DNA from: an uncultured Desulfobacterales bacterium
Lineage (GTDB): Bacteria > Desulfobacterota > Desulfobacteria > Desulfobacterales > JAHEIW01
Assembly (NCBI GenBank): GCA_947259495.1
Contig: CAMYLV010000002.1
Location: forward strand, 1-64,000
Length of the DNA stretch: 64,000 nt
Direction: 5' to 3'
Shown: piece after piece, positions 13,584-59,520 of the stretch
Layout: each line of letters opens with the position of its first letter
Numbering within the stretch: the first letter of the stretch is position 1
Translations under genes and position numbers: made by a program
The notes under the pieces: model-generated
The model's input: the letters and a program-made list of their open reading frames with translations, nothing else
Database searches by the model: none
Told to the model about the DNA's origin: nothing

Positions 13584-16277
13584 ATGGTCAAACACGATTC
13601 AGCCGTTTTAAGGATGTGGCGTTCATGTAAGACGCAGGTGATCAATAAAATTTGTTTGATCATTATTGCCGCAATGGGAATATGCCAGCAAACAGCAAAC
13701 GCTCAGCAACCGCCGAGTGTTGTTATATTGCCTTTTGAAATATTTTCTGAAAAAGATCTGACCTATTTGCAAACTGAAATTCCTTTGGCATTAAAAAAAT
13801 CTCTCGAACAGGCAGGCGCAAGGGTTTTGTTACTCGATCCGCTTTCAGAGCCGGAATGGAAAACGCGGGTGGCCACTACAGAAGCGATCCGGGGCCTAAG
13901 TGTTCAGACCGGAGCTGATCATGTTATCTGGGGCAGCCTTACCTGGATCGGGCAACAGTTCAGCTTGGACTTAAAATTGTTTGAAACGCCTGCCGAAAGG
14001 CCGCGTCCTTTTACAGCTGAAGGCAAGGGGATCGAAAATTTGCCGACCGCGGTGGACAAACTTGCGCAAGAACTGGCCGTGAGGATATTTAAACGCAAAA
14101 AAATTCTGGTCATAAACGTAGTCGGCAACCAGCGGATTGAGGCTGATGCGATAAAAAGGGTTGTCAAGACGCAGCCCGGCGACCTATATAATCTGAAAAG
14201 TCTGTCAGATGATCTAAAGGCGATTTACGCCATGGGTTATTTTGATGATATTAAAATTGAAGCTGAAACTCAGCCCGATGGAATGATCGTAACCTTTAAT
14301 ATCAAGGAAAAACCCACTTTACGCAAAGTGCTTTTCAGCGGTATTCACTGGGCATTTGAAGATGAGGAAGTCGAGGAGGTCATTACAGCCAAAAGAGGTA
14401 CCATATTAAACATCAATGTTATCCAAAATGATATAGATCGAATTACAGAGCTGTACAAAGAAGACAATTACCACAACGTAAAAGTCGACTATAAAATTTA
14501 TGAGCATAAAGACAATCAGGCCGATATTGAGTATATTATTGAGGAGGGGGAAAAGTTTCAGATTGAAAAAATCAAATTTGAAGGTAACACGGCCTTTTCA
14601 GATAAGGAACTTAAGCGCCAGATGACGACTTCTGAAACAAACATCCTTTCCTGGTTCACCACCGCCGGAGATTTAAACGAAAATAATCTTGAACAAGATG
14701 TCGCCAGGCTAACTTCCTTTTATAAAAATAACGGGTATATGCAGGCCCGGGTGGGTGAGCCGGTGGTAAATTTCGTCGGCAAAGAGATTGAAATCACCAT
14801 AAAAATTGTCGAAGGGCCTCGCTTCAAGGTCGGCAAGGTCGCACTGACCGGGGATTTGATTCTATCACAAGAAGAATTGAGTGCGAGTCTAAAAATCAGC
14901 ACAGAGGAGTTTTATAATCGTGAAATATTGCGCAACGATGTTTTAAACCTCACCGACCTATATGCCGATCAAGGTTATGCTTACGCAGATGTCGCGCCGC
15001 AGGTCAAACAGGATCCTGAAAAATTGGTGGTTGATATAACCTTTGATGTCAAAAAAGGCCAGGAAGTCTATTTTGAAGAAATTATCATCTCTGGTAACAC
15101 CAAAACACGTGATAAAGTCATCCGGCGGCAACTGCGCGTTTACGAACAGGAGATTTTCAGCTCACGTCGGCTTAAACGCAGTATTCGCAATCTTTATCGC
15201 CTGGATTATTTCGAAGACGTTAAAGTGGATACCACAAAAGGCAGTGCCGATGACAAGATGATCCTAAAAATAGATGTTGCCGAAAAATCAACCGGCGCGT
15301 TCAGTTTTGGGGCCGGTTACGGAAATGCCGATCAGCTGTTTGGGACGATCTCCATTGCCGAACGCAACCTTTTTGGTCGGGGGCAGACGCTCGAGCTAAA
15401 AGGCACCCTGGGCAGTAAAACCCAAAATGTTAACCTCAGTTTTACCGAACCTTATATCTATGACATTCCCTTAAGCGGTACCATTAACTTCTACAACTGG
15501 CAATACAGTTATGATGAGTATGATAAGGACAGTTTTGGCGTTGGGCTCAGTTTTAGCTACCCCATTTTTAATTTTACCCGAGCACGGGCAGGCTATATTT
15601 TTGATTTGGCCAACATCAGCAATATTGACAGTTCAGCGCCCGGATCCATCCAGGAGCTTAAAGGCGAAAACGTAAAAAGCAGCATCACCCCGGGGCTGCG
15701 CTATGATTCTCGCGATAGCACCTTTGTCCCGACACGAGGCGCCACTCATGGATTTTCCTTTGAATTTGCCGGTCTCGGCGGCGACATTGGATTTATGAAA
15801 TACATTGGCGAAACCGCCTATTACATACCCTTGTTTTGGAAATTTGTGGCGGCACCCCATATAGAAGCCGGCTATGTCAATAAAACCAAAGATAAGAAAT
15901 TGCCCGACTATGAGAAGTTTTATTTGGGCGGAATCGGTTCACTGCGGGGATTTGAACGCGACGATTTGGCCCCGCGAGACGAGGATGGAAACTCCATCGG
16001 AGGCGACAAATACGTTCAGTTTAATTTTGATGTGACGTTTCCGCTGTTAAAAGATCAGGGGGTATACGGCGACGTTTTTTTTGATACCGGCAAAGTTTAT
16101 GGCGATAATGAGAAGATAGAATTGAACCCCGCTGATCTGCGGCAAAGCGCGGGGCTTGGCATCCGCTGGCTGTCACCGATGGGACCCGTCGTCTTTGCTT
16201 ACGGTTTTATTCTTGACCCAGAAAAAAGAGATAGCGGCCCGGGCAACTGGGAGTTTTCGATGGCGTCCGCCTTTTAA
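13584..16277 (+). CDS. bamA: Outer membrane protein assembly factor BamA
   Basis: BamA inserts beta-barrel proteins into the outer membrane. A signal peptide (hydrophobic core about residues 21-34, cleavage after TANA-Q near 41) is followed by an extra domain of about 120 residues (VVILPFEIFSEKDL...) that resembles the N-terminal alpha/beta domain found in TolB/FlgO-like proteins. Then come five POTRA repeats (about 175-570; for example VVGNQRIEADAIKR and ISGNTKTRDKVIRR) and a C-terminal barrel. The barrel has the conserved LGGIGSLRGFERDD segment (VRGF-type, with L) and ends in Phe, as expected for Bam substrates. At 897 residues it is longer than E. coli BamA because of the extra domain. ompH follows. 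Confidence 0.95.
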   Translation: MVKHDSAVLRMWRSCKTQVINKICLIIIAAMGICQQTANAQQPPSVVILPFEIFSEKDLTYLQTEIPLALKKSLEQAGARVLLLDPLSEPEWKTRVATTEAIRGLSVQTGADHVIWGSLTWIGQQFSLDLKLFETPAERPRPFTAEGKGIENLPTAVDKLAQELAVRIFKRKKILVINVVGNQRIEADAIKRVVKTQPGDLYNLKSLSDDLKAIYAMGYFDDIKIEAETQPDGMIVTFNIKEKPTLRKVLFSGIHWAFEDEEVEEVITAKRGTILNINVIQNDIDRITELYKEDNYHNVKVDYKIYEHKDNQADIEYIIEEGEKFQIEKIKFEGNTAFSDKELKRQMTTSETNILSWFTTAGDLNENNLEQDVARLTSFYKNNGYMQARVGEPVVNFVGKEIEITIKIVEGPRFKVGKVALTGDLILSQEELSASLKISTEEFYNREILRNDVLNLTDLYADQGYAYADVAPQVKQDPEKLVVDITFDVKKGQEVYFEEIIISGNTKTRDKVIRRQLRVYEQEIFSSRRLKRSIRNLYRLDYFEDVKVDTTKGSADDKMILKIDVAEKSTGAFSFGAGYGNADQLFGTISIAERNLFGRGQTLELKGTLGSKTQNVNLSFTEPYIYDIPLSGTINFYNWQYSYDEYDKDSFGVGLSFSYPIFNFTRARAGYIFDLANISNIDSSAPGSIQELKGENVKSSITPGLRYDSRDSTFVPTRGATHGFSFEFAGLGGDIGFMKYIGETAYYIPLFWKFVAAPHIEAGYVNKTKDKKLPDYEKFYLGGIGSLRGFERDDLAPRDEDGNSIGGDKYVQFNFDVTFPLLKDQGVYGDVFFDTGKVYGDNEKIELNPADLRQSAGLGIRWLSPMGPVVFAYGFILDPEKRDSGPGNWEFSMASAF

Positions 16278-53751: not shown

Positions 53752-55116
53752 TTGAAAGTTATTATTGTCGGAGCCGGGGAGGTCGGTTTCCACATTGCGA
53801 GCCATCTGGCGCTGGAAAACAAAGATGTGGTGGTCATCGACAAAAACCCGAATGCGATTCGACGGGTTTCCGATAATCTCGATGTTCAGGTTGTCACCGG
53901 TTCGGGGAGCAGCCCGATGGTCCTGGAAGAAGCCGGTATTCAAAACACTGAAATCATACTGGCGGTCACCAATAGTGACGAAACCAATCTGGTGGCCTGC
54001 CTGGTAGCCAATATCATTTCGCCATCGACCAAAAAACTGGCCCGCATCCGCAATGCTGATTTTGACACTTATCATGGAAACTTTCGGGAGATGGCACCGC
54101 ATATTGACACCATTATCAACCCGGACATTGAAGTGGTAAAGACCATCTACCGCATGATGAGCGTGCCGGGCGCTGTGGATATCGGTGAATTTGCCGATGG
54201 TCGTCTAAAATTTGTCGGGGTGAATTTAGAAGACGATTCACAACTGGCCGGCGCACGGCTTTCGGAGCTGCCGACCATTGTCGGCAAGGCCAGACCTCTG
54301 ATTGCGGCAGTGGTGCGCAAAGATGAGCTCATCATCCCCAGGGGAGACGATCGTCTCAAGTCTGGGGATCTGGTTTATTTTATCAGCGAAGAAGACAAAT
54401 TACTGGATACCCTTTCGCTGTTTAATAAATATGACCAGCCGCTGAAGCGAGCATTGATTATCGGCGGCGGACGCATTGGCTACCGAACGGCCAGTCTGCT
54501 GGAAGAGCACTCGATTTACTGCAAAATCATCGAACGCAATCCGGACCGCTGCACCTACCTGGCCGAACGCATGAACAAGTCGATTGTGCTTTGCGGGGAC
54601 GGTTCGGATCAAGAACTGCTCACAGAAGAAAATATCCAGGATATGGATATCGTCATTACGCTAACCCAGAATGAGGAAACCAATATTTTGGCCTCCCTCC
54701 TGGCCAAGCGCATGGGCGCGCGCCAGACCATCACCCGCATCAGCAAATTCAGTTATTTTCCGCTGACGGATGCCATTGGGATTGAACAGGTCGTCAGCCC
54801 GCGGCTGTCTGCCATCAACACCATCCTGCAGCACATCCGCAAGGGAAAAGTGCTATCAGCCATATCCATCAAAGGTGAGCAGGCCGAGGTTATCGAAGCG
54901 GTAGCTCTGGAAACATCGGACATCGTTGCAAAGCCCCTGCATGCCATTTCTTTTCCAAAAGGCGCCATGGTCGCAGGCATTATCCGCCAGGAATCGATTA
55001 TTATTCCGACGGGCGACAGCGTCATCCAGCCCAATGACCGGGTCATCATTTTTGCCCGGAAAGAAGCCATCTCTAAAATCGAGAAGATTCTATCCGTAAA
55101 GCTGGAGTATTTCTAG
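53752..55116 (+). CDS. trkA: Trk potassium transporter NAD-binding regulatory protein TrkA
   Basis: TrkA gates the TrkH potassium channel in response to nucleotides. The 454-residue protein is a tandem duplication: RCK_N (VIIVGAGEVGFHIASHLALE at the start), RCK_C (about 140-220), second RCK_N (ALIIGGGRIGYRTASLLEEH near 231) and second RCK_C (about 370-450). Both GxGxxG dinucleotide sites are intact. It begins with TTG after GGGGAGAAT. The stop codon immediately adjoins the trkH ATG, so the two subunits are made together. Confidence 0.94.
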   Translation: MKVIIVGAGEVGFHIASHLALENKDVVVIDKNPNAIRRVSDNLDVQVVTGSGSSPMVLEEAGIQNTEIILAVTNSDETNLVACLVANIISPSTKKLARIRNADFDTYHGNFREMAPHIDTIINPDIEVVKTIYRMMSVPGAVDIGEFADGRLKFVGVNLEDDSQLAGARLSELPTIVGKARPLIAAVVRKDELIIPRGDDRLKSGDLVYFISEEDKLLDTLSLFNKYDQPLKRALIIGGGRIGYRTASLLEEHSIYCKIIERNPDRCTYLAERMNKSIVLCGDGSDQELLTEENIQDMDIVITLTQNEETNILASLLAKRMGARQTITRISKFSYFPLTDAIGIEQVVSPRLSAINTILQHIRKGKVLSAISIKGEQAEVIEAVALETSDIVAKPLHAISFPKGAMVAGIIRQESIIIPTGDSVIQPNDRVIIFARKEAISKIEKILSVKLEYF

Positions 55117-56565
55117 ATGCGCTGGCGCTATATCCTTCACACAGTCGCGGTAATGTCTTTTTTCTTCGGGCTGACTATGATTGTTCCCCTTGTTGTTGGT
55201 CTGTATTATCGCGATCAGAGTGTTGCACCACTGTTAAATTCCATGGGGATAACTGTCGTCAGCGGTCTATTGTTTCACCTGATTTTCAGAAGTGGCAAAG
55301 CCGAGGTAATCAGCCAGCGGGAAGGCATGGCCATCGTTGCAATCGGGTGGACCGCCGTGGGCTTGTTTGGAGCGTTGCCGTTTTATCTATCCAGCGGTTT
55401 TGAGACCTTTGTCGATGCGGCTTTTGAATCAGTGTCCGGTTTTACCACCACGGGGGCATCGATTTTAACCAATATCGAAGCGGTTTCAAAAGGTCTTTTG
55501 TTCTGGCGCAGCTTTATCCAGTGGCTCGGCGGAATGGGCATCATTGTGCTGTCGGTGGCCATTCTCCCCTTTTTAGGCGTCGGTGGTATGCAGCTTTACA
55601 AAGCCGAAGTCCCCAGCCCGGTCCCGGACAAACTCAGACCCCGTATTCGGGACACGGCCATGATTCTCTGGAAAGTATATGCCCTGATTTCCCTGGTGCA
55701 GACTGTTTTACTTCTGTTGGGGGGCATGAGTTTATACGATGCCTTGTGCCACACCTTTACCACCATGCCCACTGGAGGATTTTCCACCCAAAATGCATCG
55801 ATAGCCCATTATGACAGCATCTATTTTGACTGCGTTTTTATATTTTTTATGCTGATGGCCGGCATTAACTTCTCTTTGCACTACCAATTTTTAAAGGGAA
55901 AGCCTTTGGTTTTCTGGCGGGACTCTGAGTGTCGTTTTTTTCTGGGAACGGTACTGCTCTTGATCATTGTGGTCACGATGAATCTTTACGGTTCGGTATA
56001 TACAACTTTAGGTACCGCGTTGCGCTTCGGCGCATTTCAGGTGGTATCCATCATCACCACCACCGGTTTTGCAACCGCCGACTATGAGCTTTGGCCGTCC
56101 ATGTCCCAGCTAATTTTATTATTGTGTATGTTTATCGGCGCATCAGCCGGATCCACCGGGGGCGGCATGAAGTGCCTGCGGATCATGCTGTGCTTTAAAT
56201 ATTGTTATCGGGAACTATTCAGCCTGATTCACCCGCGAGCGGTCTCCCCGATAAAAATCGGCGGCAAAACAGTGCCGGACGATGTCATGCGCAGCGTGGT
56301 CGGATTCCTGGCCTTGTACATGGGATTATTTGCCCTGAGCACTGTGGCATTGGCGGGACTGGGCGTGGATTTTAGAACTTCATTTGCCGCCATTGCTGCT
56401 AGTATCGGCAACATCGGGCCCGGTTTTGGTATGGTGGGCCCGGTGGACAACTATGCTCAGATCCCCGATTTAGGCAAATGGCTACTGATCTGGTGCATGT
56501 TGCTGGGACGGCTGGAAATTTTCACGGTGATTATTCTCGTAGTCCCCGAGTTCTGGCGAAAGTAA
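55117..56565 (+). CDS. trkH: Trk potassium transporter membrane subunit TrkH
   Basis: TrkH is the channel-like potassium uptake subunit in the inner membrane. The 482-residue protein has the fourfold M1-P-M2 layout. The selectivity-filter segments are SGFTTTGAS near residue 110, TMPTGGFSTQN near 220, STITTTGFATADY-type (here IITTTGFATADYELWP) near 310, and ASIGNIGPGFGMVG near 430. Asp/Glu-rich gating loops and IGGKTVPDDVMRSVVGF near 385 are typical. It is the last gene before the tRNA cluster. Confidence 0.95.
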   Translation: MRWRYILHTVAVMSFFFGLTMIVPLVVGLYYRDQSVAPLLNSMGITVVSGLLFHLIFRSGKAEVISQREGMAIVAIGWTAVGLFGALPFYLSSGFETFVDAAFESVSGFTTTGASILTNIEAVSKGLLFWRSFIQWLGGMGIIVLSVAILPFLGVGGMQLYKAEVPSPVPDKLRPRIRDTAMILWKVYALISLVQTVLLLLGGMSLYDALCHTFTTMPTGGFSTQNASIAHYDSIYFDCVFIFFMLMAGINFSLHYQFLKGKPLVFWRDSECRFFLGTVLLLIIVVTMNLYGSVYTTLGTALRFGAFQVVSIITTTGFATADYELWPSMSQLILLLCMFIGASAGSTGGGMKCLRIMLCFKYCYRELFSLIHPRAVSPIKIGGKTVPDDVMRSVVGFLALYMGLFALSTVALAGLGVDFRTSFAAIAASIGNIGPGFGMVGPVDNYAQIPDLGKWLLIWCMLLGRLEIFTVIILVVPEFWRK

Positions 56566-56734: not shown

Positions 56735-56765
56735 TATATAAAACCGTTTCACAGTTTTATCTTGC

Positions 56766-56846
56766 GTCCCCATCGTTTAGCCTGGTCCAGGACATCCCGC
56801 ATAACATGCGGGACAACGGGTTTCATAATCCGCTTAGGGACGCCGA
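56766..56846 (+). pseudogene. Degenerate tRNA-Glu duplicate (tRNA-like sequence)
   Basis: The first 30 bases (GTCCCCATCGTTTAGCCTGG and onward) are almost identical to the true tRNA-Glu just downstream. The anticodon arm is replaced by a different perfect hairpin, TCCCGCAT-AAC-ATGCGGGA; if folded as a normal five-base stem, the loop would be ATAACAT, with AAC in the anticodon position. The T-arm has one extra base (GGTTTCATAATCC), the acceptor has one C-A mismatch, and the 3' end reads CCG rather than CCA. It is probably not charged; a specialised tRNA-like role cannot be excluded. Confidence 0.6.
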
Positions 56847-56879: not shown

Positions 56880-56957
56880 GTCCCCATCGTCTAGCCTGGT
56901 CCAGGACACCGGCCTTTCACGCCGGCAACAGGGGTTCAAATCCCCTTGGGGACGCCA
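56880..56957 (+). tRNA. tRNA-Glu (anticodon TTC)
   Basis: The acceptor GTCCCCA pairs with TGGGGAC, followed by discriminator G and encoded CCA. The anticodon stem CCGGC/GCCGG encloses CTTTCAC, giving anticodon TTC for glutamate. The T-arm is AGGGGTTCAAATCCCCT. Its 3' 18 bases are the beginning of a 99-bp sequence repeated exactly at 58491-58589. Confidence 0.95.
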
Positions 56958-57038
56958 TAATTTATTGCAGAGGGATATCGGCAACAGCCGTTAACATTAA
57001 TAGCTTTCCGAGGACATTTGCGATAGTGGATTCATATC
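56940..57038 (+). repeat. Left copy of 99-bp perfect direct repeat (tRNA-Glu 3' end)
   Basis: From ATCCCCTTGGGGACGCC to GATAGTGGATTCATATC this sequence recurs without difference at 58491-58589. It includes the last 18 bases of tRNA-Glu. On the minus strand the remaining part would encode the same C-terminal residues as the acyltransferase gene that ends in the right copy. This resembles the left attachment site of a small integrated segment. Confidence 0.9.
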
Positions 57039-57051
57039 GACGCCAATTTTT

Positions 57052-57084
57052 AAAGCGGTTATCAAACAGATGATAACCGCTTTT
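57052..57084. terminator. Bidirectional rho-independent terminator
   Basis: AAAGCGGTTATCA and TGATAACCGCTTT form a perfect 13-base stem with a six-base loop, followed by TTATTTATTTT on the plus strand. It ends transcription from the tRNA cluster. It lies inside the islet, 13 bases past the left direct repeat. Confidence 0.85.
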
Positions 57085-57196
57085 ATTTATTTTAATACAG
57101 CTTAGTATGATCTTTTGATCCTAACGAATATCAATGGCAAATATAGCGGGTGAATACATCAGGTAAGGCGATAGATTCTATATTAAGAAGAAGAAG

Positions 57197-57403
57197 TTAT
57201 GCAGTTTGTTGAGGCATTTCTTGAAAGGAAAATTCCCACAACTCCGCGTTGGCTTTCGCGTGTTCAATCGTCATGCCTACAAGATTGCCCTTTACATCTA
57301 TGTCAATATCAATATTTTCACTGATCTCTTTAGTTTCGAGAACGTTATTATCTTTGAATTCGACATGGGCTGTGTCTGTGTCCGGAAAATATTTGACTTT
57401 CAT
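57197..57403 (-). CDS. DUF2283 family protein
   Basis: The 68-residue protein matches DUF2283: KYFPDTDTAHVEFKDNNVLE at the start, then ENIDIDIDVKGNLVGMTIEHA. These small proteins are widespread, often horizontally acquired, and frequently next to a DUF4258 protein; no partner is present here. GGAGGGATAGAAATG provides a good start signal. It lies inside the 1.45-kb islet. Function unknown. Confidence 0.85.
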   Translation of the reverse strand: MKVKYFPDTDTAHVEFKDNNVLETKEISENIDIDIDVKGNLVGMTIEHAKANAELWEFSFQEMPQQTA

Positions 57404-57653
57404 TTCTATCCCTCCTTGTAAGATCGATCAAAGTCTGACAATTCTTATTTATTCAAGACATAGGACTACAAAAATTAAACTGAGTATTTTCACAGTAGAT
57501 TTTAAAATCATACCATCTGTCATGCTTCACTGTCCGCTTCATCTAACCTGGCCTTGAGCAGCACTTTATTCACTGAAAAACCTCTTCGGCAGAGAGCTTA
57601 TCCAGCTGACCGCCGATCAGGCCCGATAGTGCGCCGGAAGTCGCATATCCATA

Positions 57654-58352
57654 TTATGGAGTCCATTCATCAACCATATCCGGGCCTTCGTAACCGCACA
57701 CGCCCATACGAGGGGAATTGACCACATCAAGCATCATTTCCTCACCGCACTCGTGCGCATCTTGACATTGGTCACAAACAAAGCCCTCGCATTCAACACA
57801 CATGCTGGTAGCTTGTTTGCCGCAGTCCTCGCACACAGAGGCGTATGGGTTGTTGCGGGCCAATATGCGGATCTTATTTTTTCCCAAAAAGCCTTCACGC
57901 ACCGCCAGCACCTGGCCATCGAGATAGGTTGTGCTACCGAAATCATACTCATACGTAAATGTGTCCTTCAGATTCAAAACAGAGTAGAGGCGCTTGTTCA
58001 TCGACTGATTTGACATATCCGTGAAAGACAGCTCTTTTAGAAGTCTTTTATCATCGTATTTCGCTCCGCGGATGGTAAACGCACTCAGATGGCCACAACA
58101 CTCCAACCAGATGTCACGCAAAAAATCATCCAGATCGGAAAGCGTGGCGTTTCCCGGGATTTCAATGTGCAGCCAATACCATTTACCACCGGTAATTTTT
58201 AAGTGATAAATTTTATATTTTTTTTGTCTCTCTTTCAGATCCAACCCATTACTATCTTTACGAGTTTTGCATGTTAACAGATGTCGTCCCATTCCTGCGC
58301 CGGAAAATATTTTGAGGCAAAATCTGCAAAAGCCTTCACTTTTATGTTCCAT
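57654..58352 (-). CDS. pRiA4b ORF-3/IS1096-passenger-like protein with two zinc-binding modules
   Basis: The middle of this 232-residue protein (about 45-165) resembles the pRiA4b ORF-3-like family (PF07929) first noted on plasmids and near insertion sequences: YHLKITGGKWYWLHIEIPG, TLSDLDDFLRDIWLECCGHL and YEYDFGSTTYL. The N-terminus has a C2HC-type finger (CRFCLKIFSGAGMGRHLLTC), and the C-terminus a cysteine cluster (CEDCGKQATSMCVECEGFVC). The fold's function is unknown; the family context suggests mobile DNA. GGAGGCG precedes the start. It lies inside the islet bounded by the 99-bp repeats. Confidence 0.8.
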   Translation of the reverse strand: MEHKSEGFCRFCLKIFSGAGMGRHLLTCKTRKDSNGLDLKERQKKYKIYHLKITGGKWYWLHIEIPGNATLSDLDDFLRDIWLECCGHLSAFTIRGAKYDDKRLLKELSFTDMSNQSMNKRLYSVLNLKDTFTYEYDFGSTTYLDGQVLAVREGFLGKNKIRILARNNPYASVCEDCGKQATSMCVECEGFVCDQCQDAHECGEEMMLDVVNSPRMGVCGYEGPDMVDEWTP

Positions 58353-58490
58353 TTAACGCCTCCTTGCTCATCTTGTAACCAAACAATCACCAATTTTTGT
58401 CGAATAGAATAGGCCACACTTGAAATAATTGATCAAGATATCATTCCCAACTCAAATTGATCGTTTCTGATAAATAATGATACTTTACAG

Positions 58491-58589
58491 ATCCCCTTGG
58501 GGACGCCATAATTTATTGCAGAGGGATATCGGCAACAGCCGTTAACATTAATAGCTTTCCGAGGACATTTGCGATAGTGGATTCATATC
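58491..58589 (+). repeat. Right copy of 99-bp perfect direct repeat
   Basis: Identical to 56940-57038. Its first 17 bases are the tRNA-Glu 3' end without the rest of the tRNA, and the remainder codes (minus strand) for the C-terminus of the LpxL-like acyltransferase. The intact original site was therefore probably tRNA-Glu directly followed by the 3' end of that convergent gene. Confidence 0.9.
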
Positions 58590-59520
58590 TCTTTTCTTTT
58601 ATTCGCTTCAGGCGTTTTTCTGATTCCGGATAAAGATCCGGGTAAAAATCCTTCCAGCGCTTAAGCATCCAGTTCCATTGTTCCGGATAGTTGCGAATCG
58701 CGAGTTCCACGCGGTCGGTGATTAGCTGGGTATTGGCCTGTAAATCGTAGCGTAGGTCCTTGGTTCGCTGAATTTCGACAGGGGTCTCAATCTGCACAAT
58801 CAGTTCGCCTTTTGGATTGCGATGACAAAATCCCGGAATGATCGGGCTCTTGCAGCGAAGACCCAGCAGGGCAGCAGCCGGGGTGGCCGTCGCTCGACGT
58901 CCGAAGAAATTTACTTCCACTCCGTCAAATCTCCGGCTGATATCCATCAGAATAGCGAGCATCGCTCCCTGGCGCAGTGTTTGTGTCATTTCCGGAAGGG
59001 CGCCTTTTTTATAGATAACCTTATTGCCAAAGCGCGTGCGCAGGTTATGAATCAAGCGGTTTAGCCGGACGTTTCGCATTTTTTTTGCCACGGCCGCCAT
59101 TTGCAGTCCCAATAGACAGGGGATGGATTGCGCGGCCATTTCATAGTTACCCAGATGGGCCGTAATCAAAATAATACCTTTCTGCTTGGCCAGCGCTTCG
59201 ATTAAGATCTCTGCACCTTCGATGCGCACCTTTGAGACGAGCTCTTGTTGAGATAAGCAAGCCATTTGCAGAAGTTCTATGATGGTAACGCCAAAATGCT
59301 GAAAAATACGTTTGGCCTTACTTTGGATTTGCTGCGGCGATGATTCAACAAGGGAAAATTGTAAATTGCGATTAACAATGCGCCGCTGGGGCACCGCAAG
59401 GTAATACAGCAGATTGCCCAGTATTTTGCCGAAAAACAGCAGATGGGTTTTGGGTATTTGAGCAATAAAGGATTTCAACGGTATGCCCCCCGTCGATAGA
59501 GTTTCCAAAAGATCACGCAA
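58513..59520 (-). CDS. LpxL/HtrB-family lysophospholipid acyltransferase
   Basis: Family members add late acyl chains to lipid A or ornithine-type lipids. The 335-residue protein has an N-terminal hydrophobic region (about 20-45) and the catalytic box ILITAHLGNYEMAAQSIPCL near residue 116, with HLGNYE as the H(x4)D/E motif. Further blocks are LAILMDISRRFDGVEVNFFG near 192 and EQWNWMLKRWKD near 288. The final 26 residues lie inside the right copy of the 99-bp repeat. It overlaps the next upstream gene by 46 bases, forming one transcription unit with the nucleotidyltransferase and kinase genes. Confidence 0.88.
   Translation of the reverse strand: MRDLLETLSTGGIPLKSFIAQIPKTHLLFFGKILGNLLYYLAVPQRRIVNRNLQFSLVESSPQQIQSKAKRIFQHFGVTIIELLQMACLSQQELVSKVRIEGAEILIEALAKQKGIILITAHLGNYEMAAQSIPCLLGLQMAAVAKKMRNVRLNRLIHNLRTRFGNKVIYKKGALPEMTQTLRQGAMLAILMDISRRFDGVEVNFFGRRATATPAAALLGLRCKSPIIPGFCHRNPKGELIVQIETPVEIQRTKDLRYDLQANTQLITDRVELAIRNYPEQWNWMLKRWKDFYPDLYPESEKRLKRIKEKRYESTIANVLGKLLMLTAVADIPLQ

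Follow-up and report, generated by a model that had tools for sequence, protein, structure and literature searches.

A perfect 99-bp direct repeat beside tRNA-Glu in a Desulfobacterales draft genome probably reflects an assembly join of two alleles of a small integrase-less islet

The analysis of a 64,000-nucleotide stretch of DNA from an uncultured Desulfobacterales bacterium (hereafter, the window) suggested that the perfect 99-bp direct repeat read beside its tRNA-Glu gene probably originated from the assembly, in which the empty and the occupied alleles of a single locus were laid in series. According to this model, the true repeat would measure 18 bp and would bound an integrase-less tRNA-Glu islet of about 1.45 kb that is polymorphic in the sampled population. 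We infer a mixed population, the serial join and a recombinase that either acted in trans or was lost later as steps of the process.

The tRNA-Glu gene (anticodon TTC), the target of the insertion, was located by ARAGORN on the forward strand at positions 56880-56957. The stretch 56940-57038 is identical to 58491-58589 over exactly 99 bp, or over 102 bp if one mismatch is allowed, and each copy thus opens with the last 18 nucleotides of the tRNA. These data bore out a preliminary description of this DNA, which had reported perfect 99-bp direct repeats with the left copy beginning inside tRNA-Glu. The 18 nucleotides, ATCCCCTTGGGGACGCCA, constitute the attachment core, whose left copy (56940-56957, forward strand) is the 3' end of the intact gene and whose right copy (58491-58508, forward strand) is a displaced tRNA-Glu fragment in the same orientation, so that the islet is bounded by the intact tRNA at one end and by the fragment at the other. 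An 18-bp tRNA fragment following unrelated islet sequence is what integration at a tRNA 3' end typically leaves behind (Islander, PMC4383910), and its presence requires no assembly trick. The interval between the two 99-bp copies spans 1452 bp (57039-58490) and opens with GACGCCA (57039-57045, forward strand), the same seven nucleotides that end tRNA-Glu, which would represent overlap left at the assembly join and would leave an islet proper of 1445 bp (57046-58490). A 99-bp match cannot be produced by chance, and its length is probably technical, since the contigs of the assembly overlap by the same 99 bp.

Exact repeats were surveyed over 2.07 of the 4.44 Mb of the assembly, covering all contig ends and further stretches and excluding 40-mers occurring more than six times. 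Within these 2.07 Mb, 24 maximal exact repeats of 99 bp were detected and none longer. As 23 of them touch a contig end (20 end-to-end and 3 end-to-internal), the contigs of this assembly share 99 bp where the graph forks, a value that fits k=99, or k=100 where the assembler's contigs share k-1; the islet pair is the sole 99-bp repeat internal on both sides. Parallel haplotypes occur in the same assembly, the start of contig C9 matching the end of contig C19 over 661 bp at 96.8%. Separately, positions 1-99 of contig C24 (G000:C24, L056) recur at 15214-15312, 15.2 kb inside the same contig, and this graph loop could point to a further element that is variable or bounded by repeats. Chen et al. 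described local errors in assemblies and scaffold joins that retain a duplicated overlap (PMC7111523). The locus resembles such errors of metagenome-assembled genomes in that a sequence of overlap length is doubled at a join, whereas the join between the left 99-bp copy and the islet carries no Ns and the doubled segment would reflect two alleles.

The locus was modelled as an empty allele, made up of tRNA, 81 bp and lpxL, and an occupied allele, made up of tRNA, islet, core ATCCCCTTGGGGACGCCA, 81 bp and lpxL. In a k=99 de Bruijn graph of both alleles, the merge vertex corresponded to the observed 99-mer, beginning at the point from which the islet path (CAG) and the tRNA path (CAA) become identical. 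The serial path through the empty arm, a 7-base jump keeping seven bases of the shared start of the occupied arm, the remainder of that arm and lpxL returned the contig base for base over 3600 bp; as the model was built to fit the contig and the size of the jump was freely chosen, this agreement establishes sufficiency only. For a random join, GACGCCA would be expected about once in 16,000. On the basis of this model and of the 99-bp overlap signature, the 81 bp that follow the tRNA in the left copy (56958-57038) would belong to the empty allele. The predicted junctions are tRNA CCA-ATTTTTAAAGCGG for the occupied allele and CCA-TAATTTATTG...CATATC-TCTTTT for the empty one, while the contig as deposited reads CATATC-GACGCCAATTT (CATATC-GACGCCAATTTTT), i.e. 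CATATC-GACGCCA. The right junction of the islet reads TTTACAG-ATCCCC...lpxL, and a circular form, joining the right end of the islet to its left end, would be expected to read TTTACAG-core-ATTTTTAAAG.

The alternative that the 99-bp repeat is real, either brought in by a circular islet whose 99 bp matched this chromosome after an earlier imprecise excision had taken host DNA along before reintegration, or arising from an insertion with local target duplication, appears unlikely. The contig does read so, without Ns, but the repeat is exactly as long as the assembly's overlap constant and the same 99-bp overlap meets a contig end at 23 other places. In a k=99 graph a true repeat of this length would likewise be reduced to a single vertex, which read pairs could have resolved, and two element ends in one relative (G279) share an exact run of 89 bp; nevertheless, a genuine repeat leaves the identity of the islet start with the tRNA end to the chance given above, and within its 81 bp lies a deletion scar of the lineage, unexpected in an incoming element. 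The reading of two alleles laid in series also bears on two expectations of the preliminary description. The empty site it had predicted, with a single 99-bp copy after tRNA-Glu, is probably represented, under the model, by the left half of the contig; a genome of the same genus (G001) does not carry the islet, but there trkA-trkH occupies the place after tRNA-Glu. As for the assembly duplication that the description had set against its own interpretation, the evidence favours two real alleles that were joined in assembly.

The scar concerns the 81 bp beyond the tRNA. The right copy had been described as entering the 3' end of the LpxL gene; beyond the tRNA bases it consists instead of sequence found downstream of the tRNA and of what is left of the 5' end of a deleted trkH. 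In G001 the gene order is tRNA-Glu, trkA, convergent trkH and lpxL (L023 2285-5339), and in the window the trkA-trkH pair is missing between tRNA-Glu and lpxL. Alignment to the 5' end of the G001 trkH gave a score of 62, shuffled sequences reaching at most 30, and placed the remnant at 58537-58589 on the reverse strand, where its peptide STIANVLGKLLMLT aligned with SSIANVLGKLLIVT. The lpxL-like lipid A acyltransferase gene (Pfam PF03279, reverse strand) covers 58590-59520 outside the repeat, with its open frame continuing to 58513 (ORF 58513-59520). The Pfam match stops at residue 290 of 335, and the LpxL proteins of G001 and G002 finish without the C-terminal tail found in the window. A functional extension of LpxL was thus ruled out, the tail being frameshifted trkH remnant. 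Judging from these alignments, the apparent extension of the repeat into LpxL is read-through of the trkH scar. The two oddities noted earlier, the 99-bp length and the reach into a convergent protein gene, found no support as biological features. Since the scar is present in both 99-bp copies, the deletion predates the duplication, and the right copy (58491-58589, forward strand) followed by lpxL is the native arrangement. A second trkA-trkH pair occurs in the window at 53752-56565, upstream of tRNA-Lys.

The interval 57039-58490 has a GC content of 41%, against a window mean of 47% and within about the lowest 1% of same-size windows, and thus looks foreign. Its left end carries a terminator-like hairpin with a 13-bp stem and a T-rich tail (57052-57083, forward strand), followed by two reverse-strand genes, one encoding a 68-residue DUF2283 protein (57197-57403; Pfam PF10049, E 3.3e-16) and the other a 232-residue PRiA4_ORF3-like protein (57654-58352; Pfam PF07929, E 3.9e-7). 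Both genes have open frames, and a Pfam search of the islet genes recognised no integrase; hairpin and Pfam data therefore agree with the terminator, DUF2283 gene and pRiA4b ORF-3-like gene, and with the missing integrase, initially reported for these 1452 bp. The genome contains four integrase-family (PF00589) hits, none of them near the islet; two seem to match Xer recombinases in size, a third is interrupted by a stop and the fourth is fragmentary. The islet was therefore filed as an integrase-less one, working like a tRNA-gene island and not as an autonomous island.

Neither of its two proteins gave a PADLOC or NCBIfam match, and a defence function was rejected. The PRiA4_ORF3-like protein has 173 relatives in GTDB, distributed over many phyla, and a tRNA was present in the scanned stretch at 2 of the 60 PRiA4 loci scanned (58 on genome contigs and 2 viral). 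A conserved two-gene cassette was discarded: among the fetched loci outside the genome itself, DUF2283 and PRiA4 occur together only in L193, about 2 kb apart. Given this single co-occurrence and the rarity of tRNAs near the scanned loci, the pair looks like incidental cargo. A phage origin was also rejected, as viral contigs hold two PRiA4-like relatives and no DUF2283 relative, and the corrected left junction was not found in viral contigs. A transposon target-site duplication was dismissed because the islet ends are tRNA sequence; we know of no transposon with a 99-bp target-site duplication.

The low GC content, together with the notion that assemblies can be chimeric (PMC7111523), might suggest that the islet derives from another organism or strain and was never inserted at tRNA-Glu. 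We consider such a chimera very improbable: the right junction leads from the islet through the tRNA 3' fragment into the trkH scar and lpxL of this same genome, the left islet end carries the tRNA end as well, so that both ends fit insertion at tRNA-Glu, and the genome yielded only one locus with the tRNA-Glu core.

The 18-bp core was found in 210 of the 291 genomes of the order, several of which carry more than one copy. Integrase genes adjoin core copies at the same tRNA end in G022, G234, G279 and G049, and in relatives with integrases the core copies lie 9-44 kb apart. The repeat runs end 0-6 bp past CCA in all measured pairs but one, the exception being a run between two element ends of G279 that reaches 45 bp past CCA and shows that long repeats can occur. 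These data indicate that elements throughout the order use tRNA-Glu for attachment. In the corrected structure the terminator directly follows the tRNA, and the element ends of relatives appear alike by eye. The original interpretation of an islet at a tRNA is supported by the foreign look, the tRNA-Glu 3' end, the lack of an integrase and the order-wide use of the site, and a biological origin of the 99-bp length found no support. What lies beneath the repeat is an ordinary tRNA insert, very small and devoid of an integrase, the 3' end of a tRNA being an ordinary landing site of mobile DNA.

A genome of the same family (G005) holds at tRNA-Glu an integrase-less islet of 766 bp (L025 2903-3669) with a displaced 3' tRNA fragment at its far end; its gene resembles an AbiEii/DUF6036-like nucleotidyltransferase, with a weak match below the cut-off. 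The displaced fragment shows the CCGG T-arm of the intact gene of G003, while the tRNA of G005 itself reads CCCC; an insert that supplied a new tRNA 3' end would be expected to leave this difference. Beyond this islet lies a gene pair for a BrnT-like toxin and a CopG-like antitoxin. Other tRNA-Glu-like sequences were observed. Between tRNA-Lys and tRNA-Glu of the window, positions 56762-56844 hold a tRNA-Glu-like sequence with an intact 5' half, a decayed 3' half and a palindromic anticodon arm, TCCCGC...GCGGGA, a pattern present in 6 of the 291 genomes of the order (G000, G005, G007, G021, G066 and G075), with a variant in G001. In G021 (L026 2786-3312), five truncated tandem tRNA-Glu-like copies, labelled tRNA-Ala(TGC) by ARAGORN, follow tRNA-Glu with a spacing of about 115 bp.

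The elements of relatives, with integrases and with core copies 9-44 kb apart, raise a further explanation, in which the islet would be the decayed and fixed remnant of a larger tRNA-Glu island whose integrase was deleted, the repeat being either real or an assembly error. The adjacent DNA did lose trkA-trkH by deletion, and no intact integrase lies close to the islet in this genome, where two of the four integrase-family hits are broken or fragmentary. However, no trace of an integrase was recognised in the islet, both its genes are open, the two-allele reading, if correct, means that the islet is not fixed, and the 766-bp islet of G005 at the same tRNA indicates that small islets recur. We regard such a remnant as a serious possibility, somewhat short of an even chance, and as an origin it is compatible with the two-allele reading.

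Under the two-allele reading, the islet of about 1.45 kb would have entered the 3' end of tRNA-Glu by tRNA-targeted site-specific recombination, most likely performed by a tyrosine recombinase that acted in trans or has been lost since then. The insertion would restore the tRNA end and push the 18-bp 3' fragment ATCCCCTTGGGGACGCCA to the far side. The sampled population would hold both occupied and empty chromosomes, the latter belonging to another strain or having lost the islet by excision. The assembler, with its overlap constant of 99, would leave this bubble unresolved and place the empty arm before the occupied arm, a serial layout that would turn the 18-bp core and the following 81 bp into an apparent 99-bp perfect repeat. 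The case shows that the overlap length of an assembler can appear in a draft genome as a long and odd-looking perfect repeat, and that two real alleles of an insert may nonetheless be preserved in a join of this kind.

Tyrosine-integrase islands at tRNA genes are catalogued in Islander (PMC4383910). The islet shares with them the tRNA 3' end as target, an intact tRNA on one side with a displaced 3' fragment of like orientation on the other, and a crossover region in the T-arm/acceptor part; unlike them, it has no integrase and is shorter than 2 kb, and would be rejected by both the integrase and the 2-kb length filters. It also resembles the hitchers, helper-dependent elements that include satellites and CALIN cassette arrays (PMC11389934), as it is small and recombinase-less and would need a recombinase in trans, but it differs from them in having no identified helper, packaging or transfer feature, its mobility being only putative. 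The islet of G005, a genome of the same family, shares the same tRNA, the lack of an integrase, a length below 2 kb and the displaced 3' tRNA fragment, whereas its crossover extends back to the anticodon loop and its cargo is AbiEii/DUF6036-like instead of DUF2283 and PRiA4_ORF3. We tentatively suggest, as a less probable generalisation, that the tRNA-Glu of this lineage might host a class of integrase-less islets below 2 kb (1.45 kb here and 766 bp in G005), integrated in trans by recombinases that belong to other elements using this tRNA, turning over within populations and invisible to finders that demand both an integrase and 2 kb, islets small enough to escape the current catalogues of tRNA islands.
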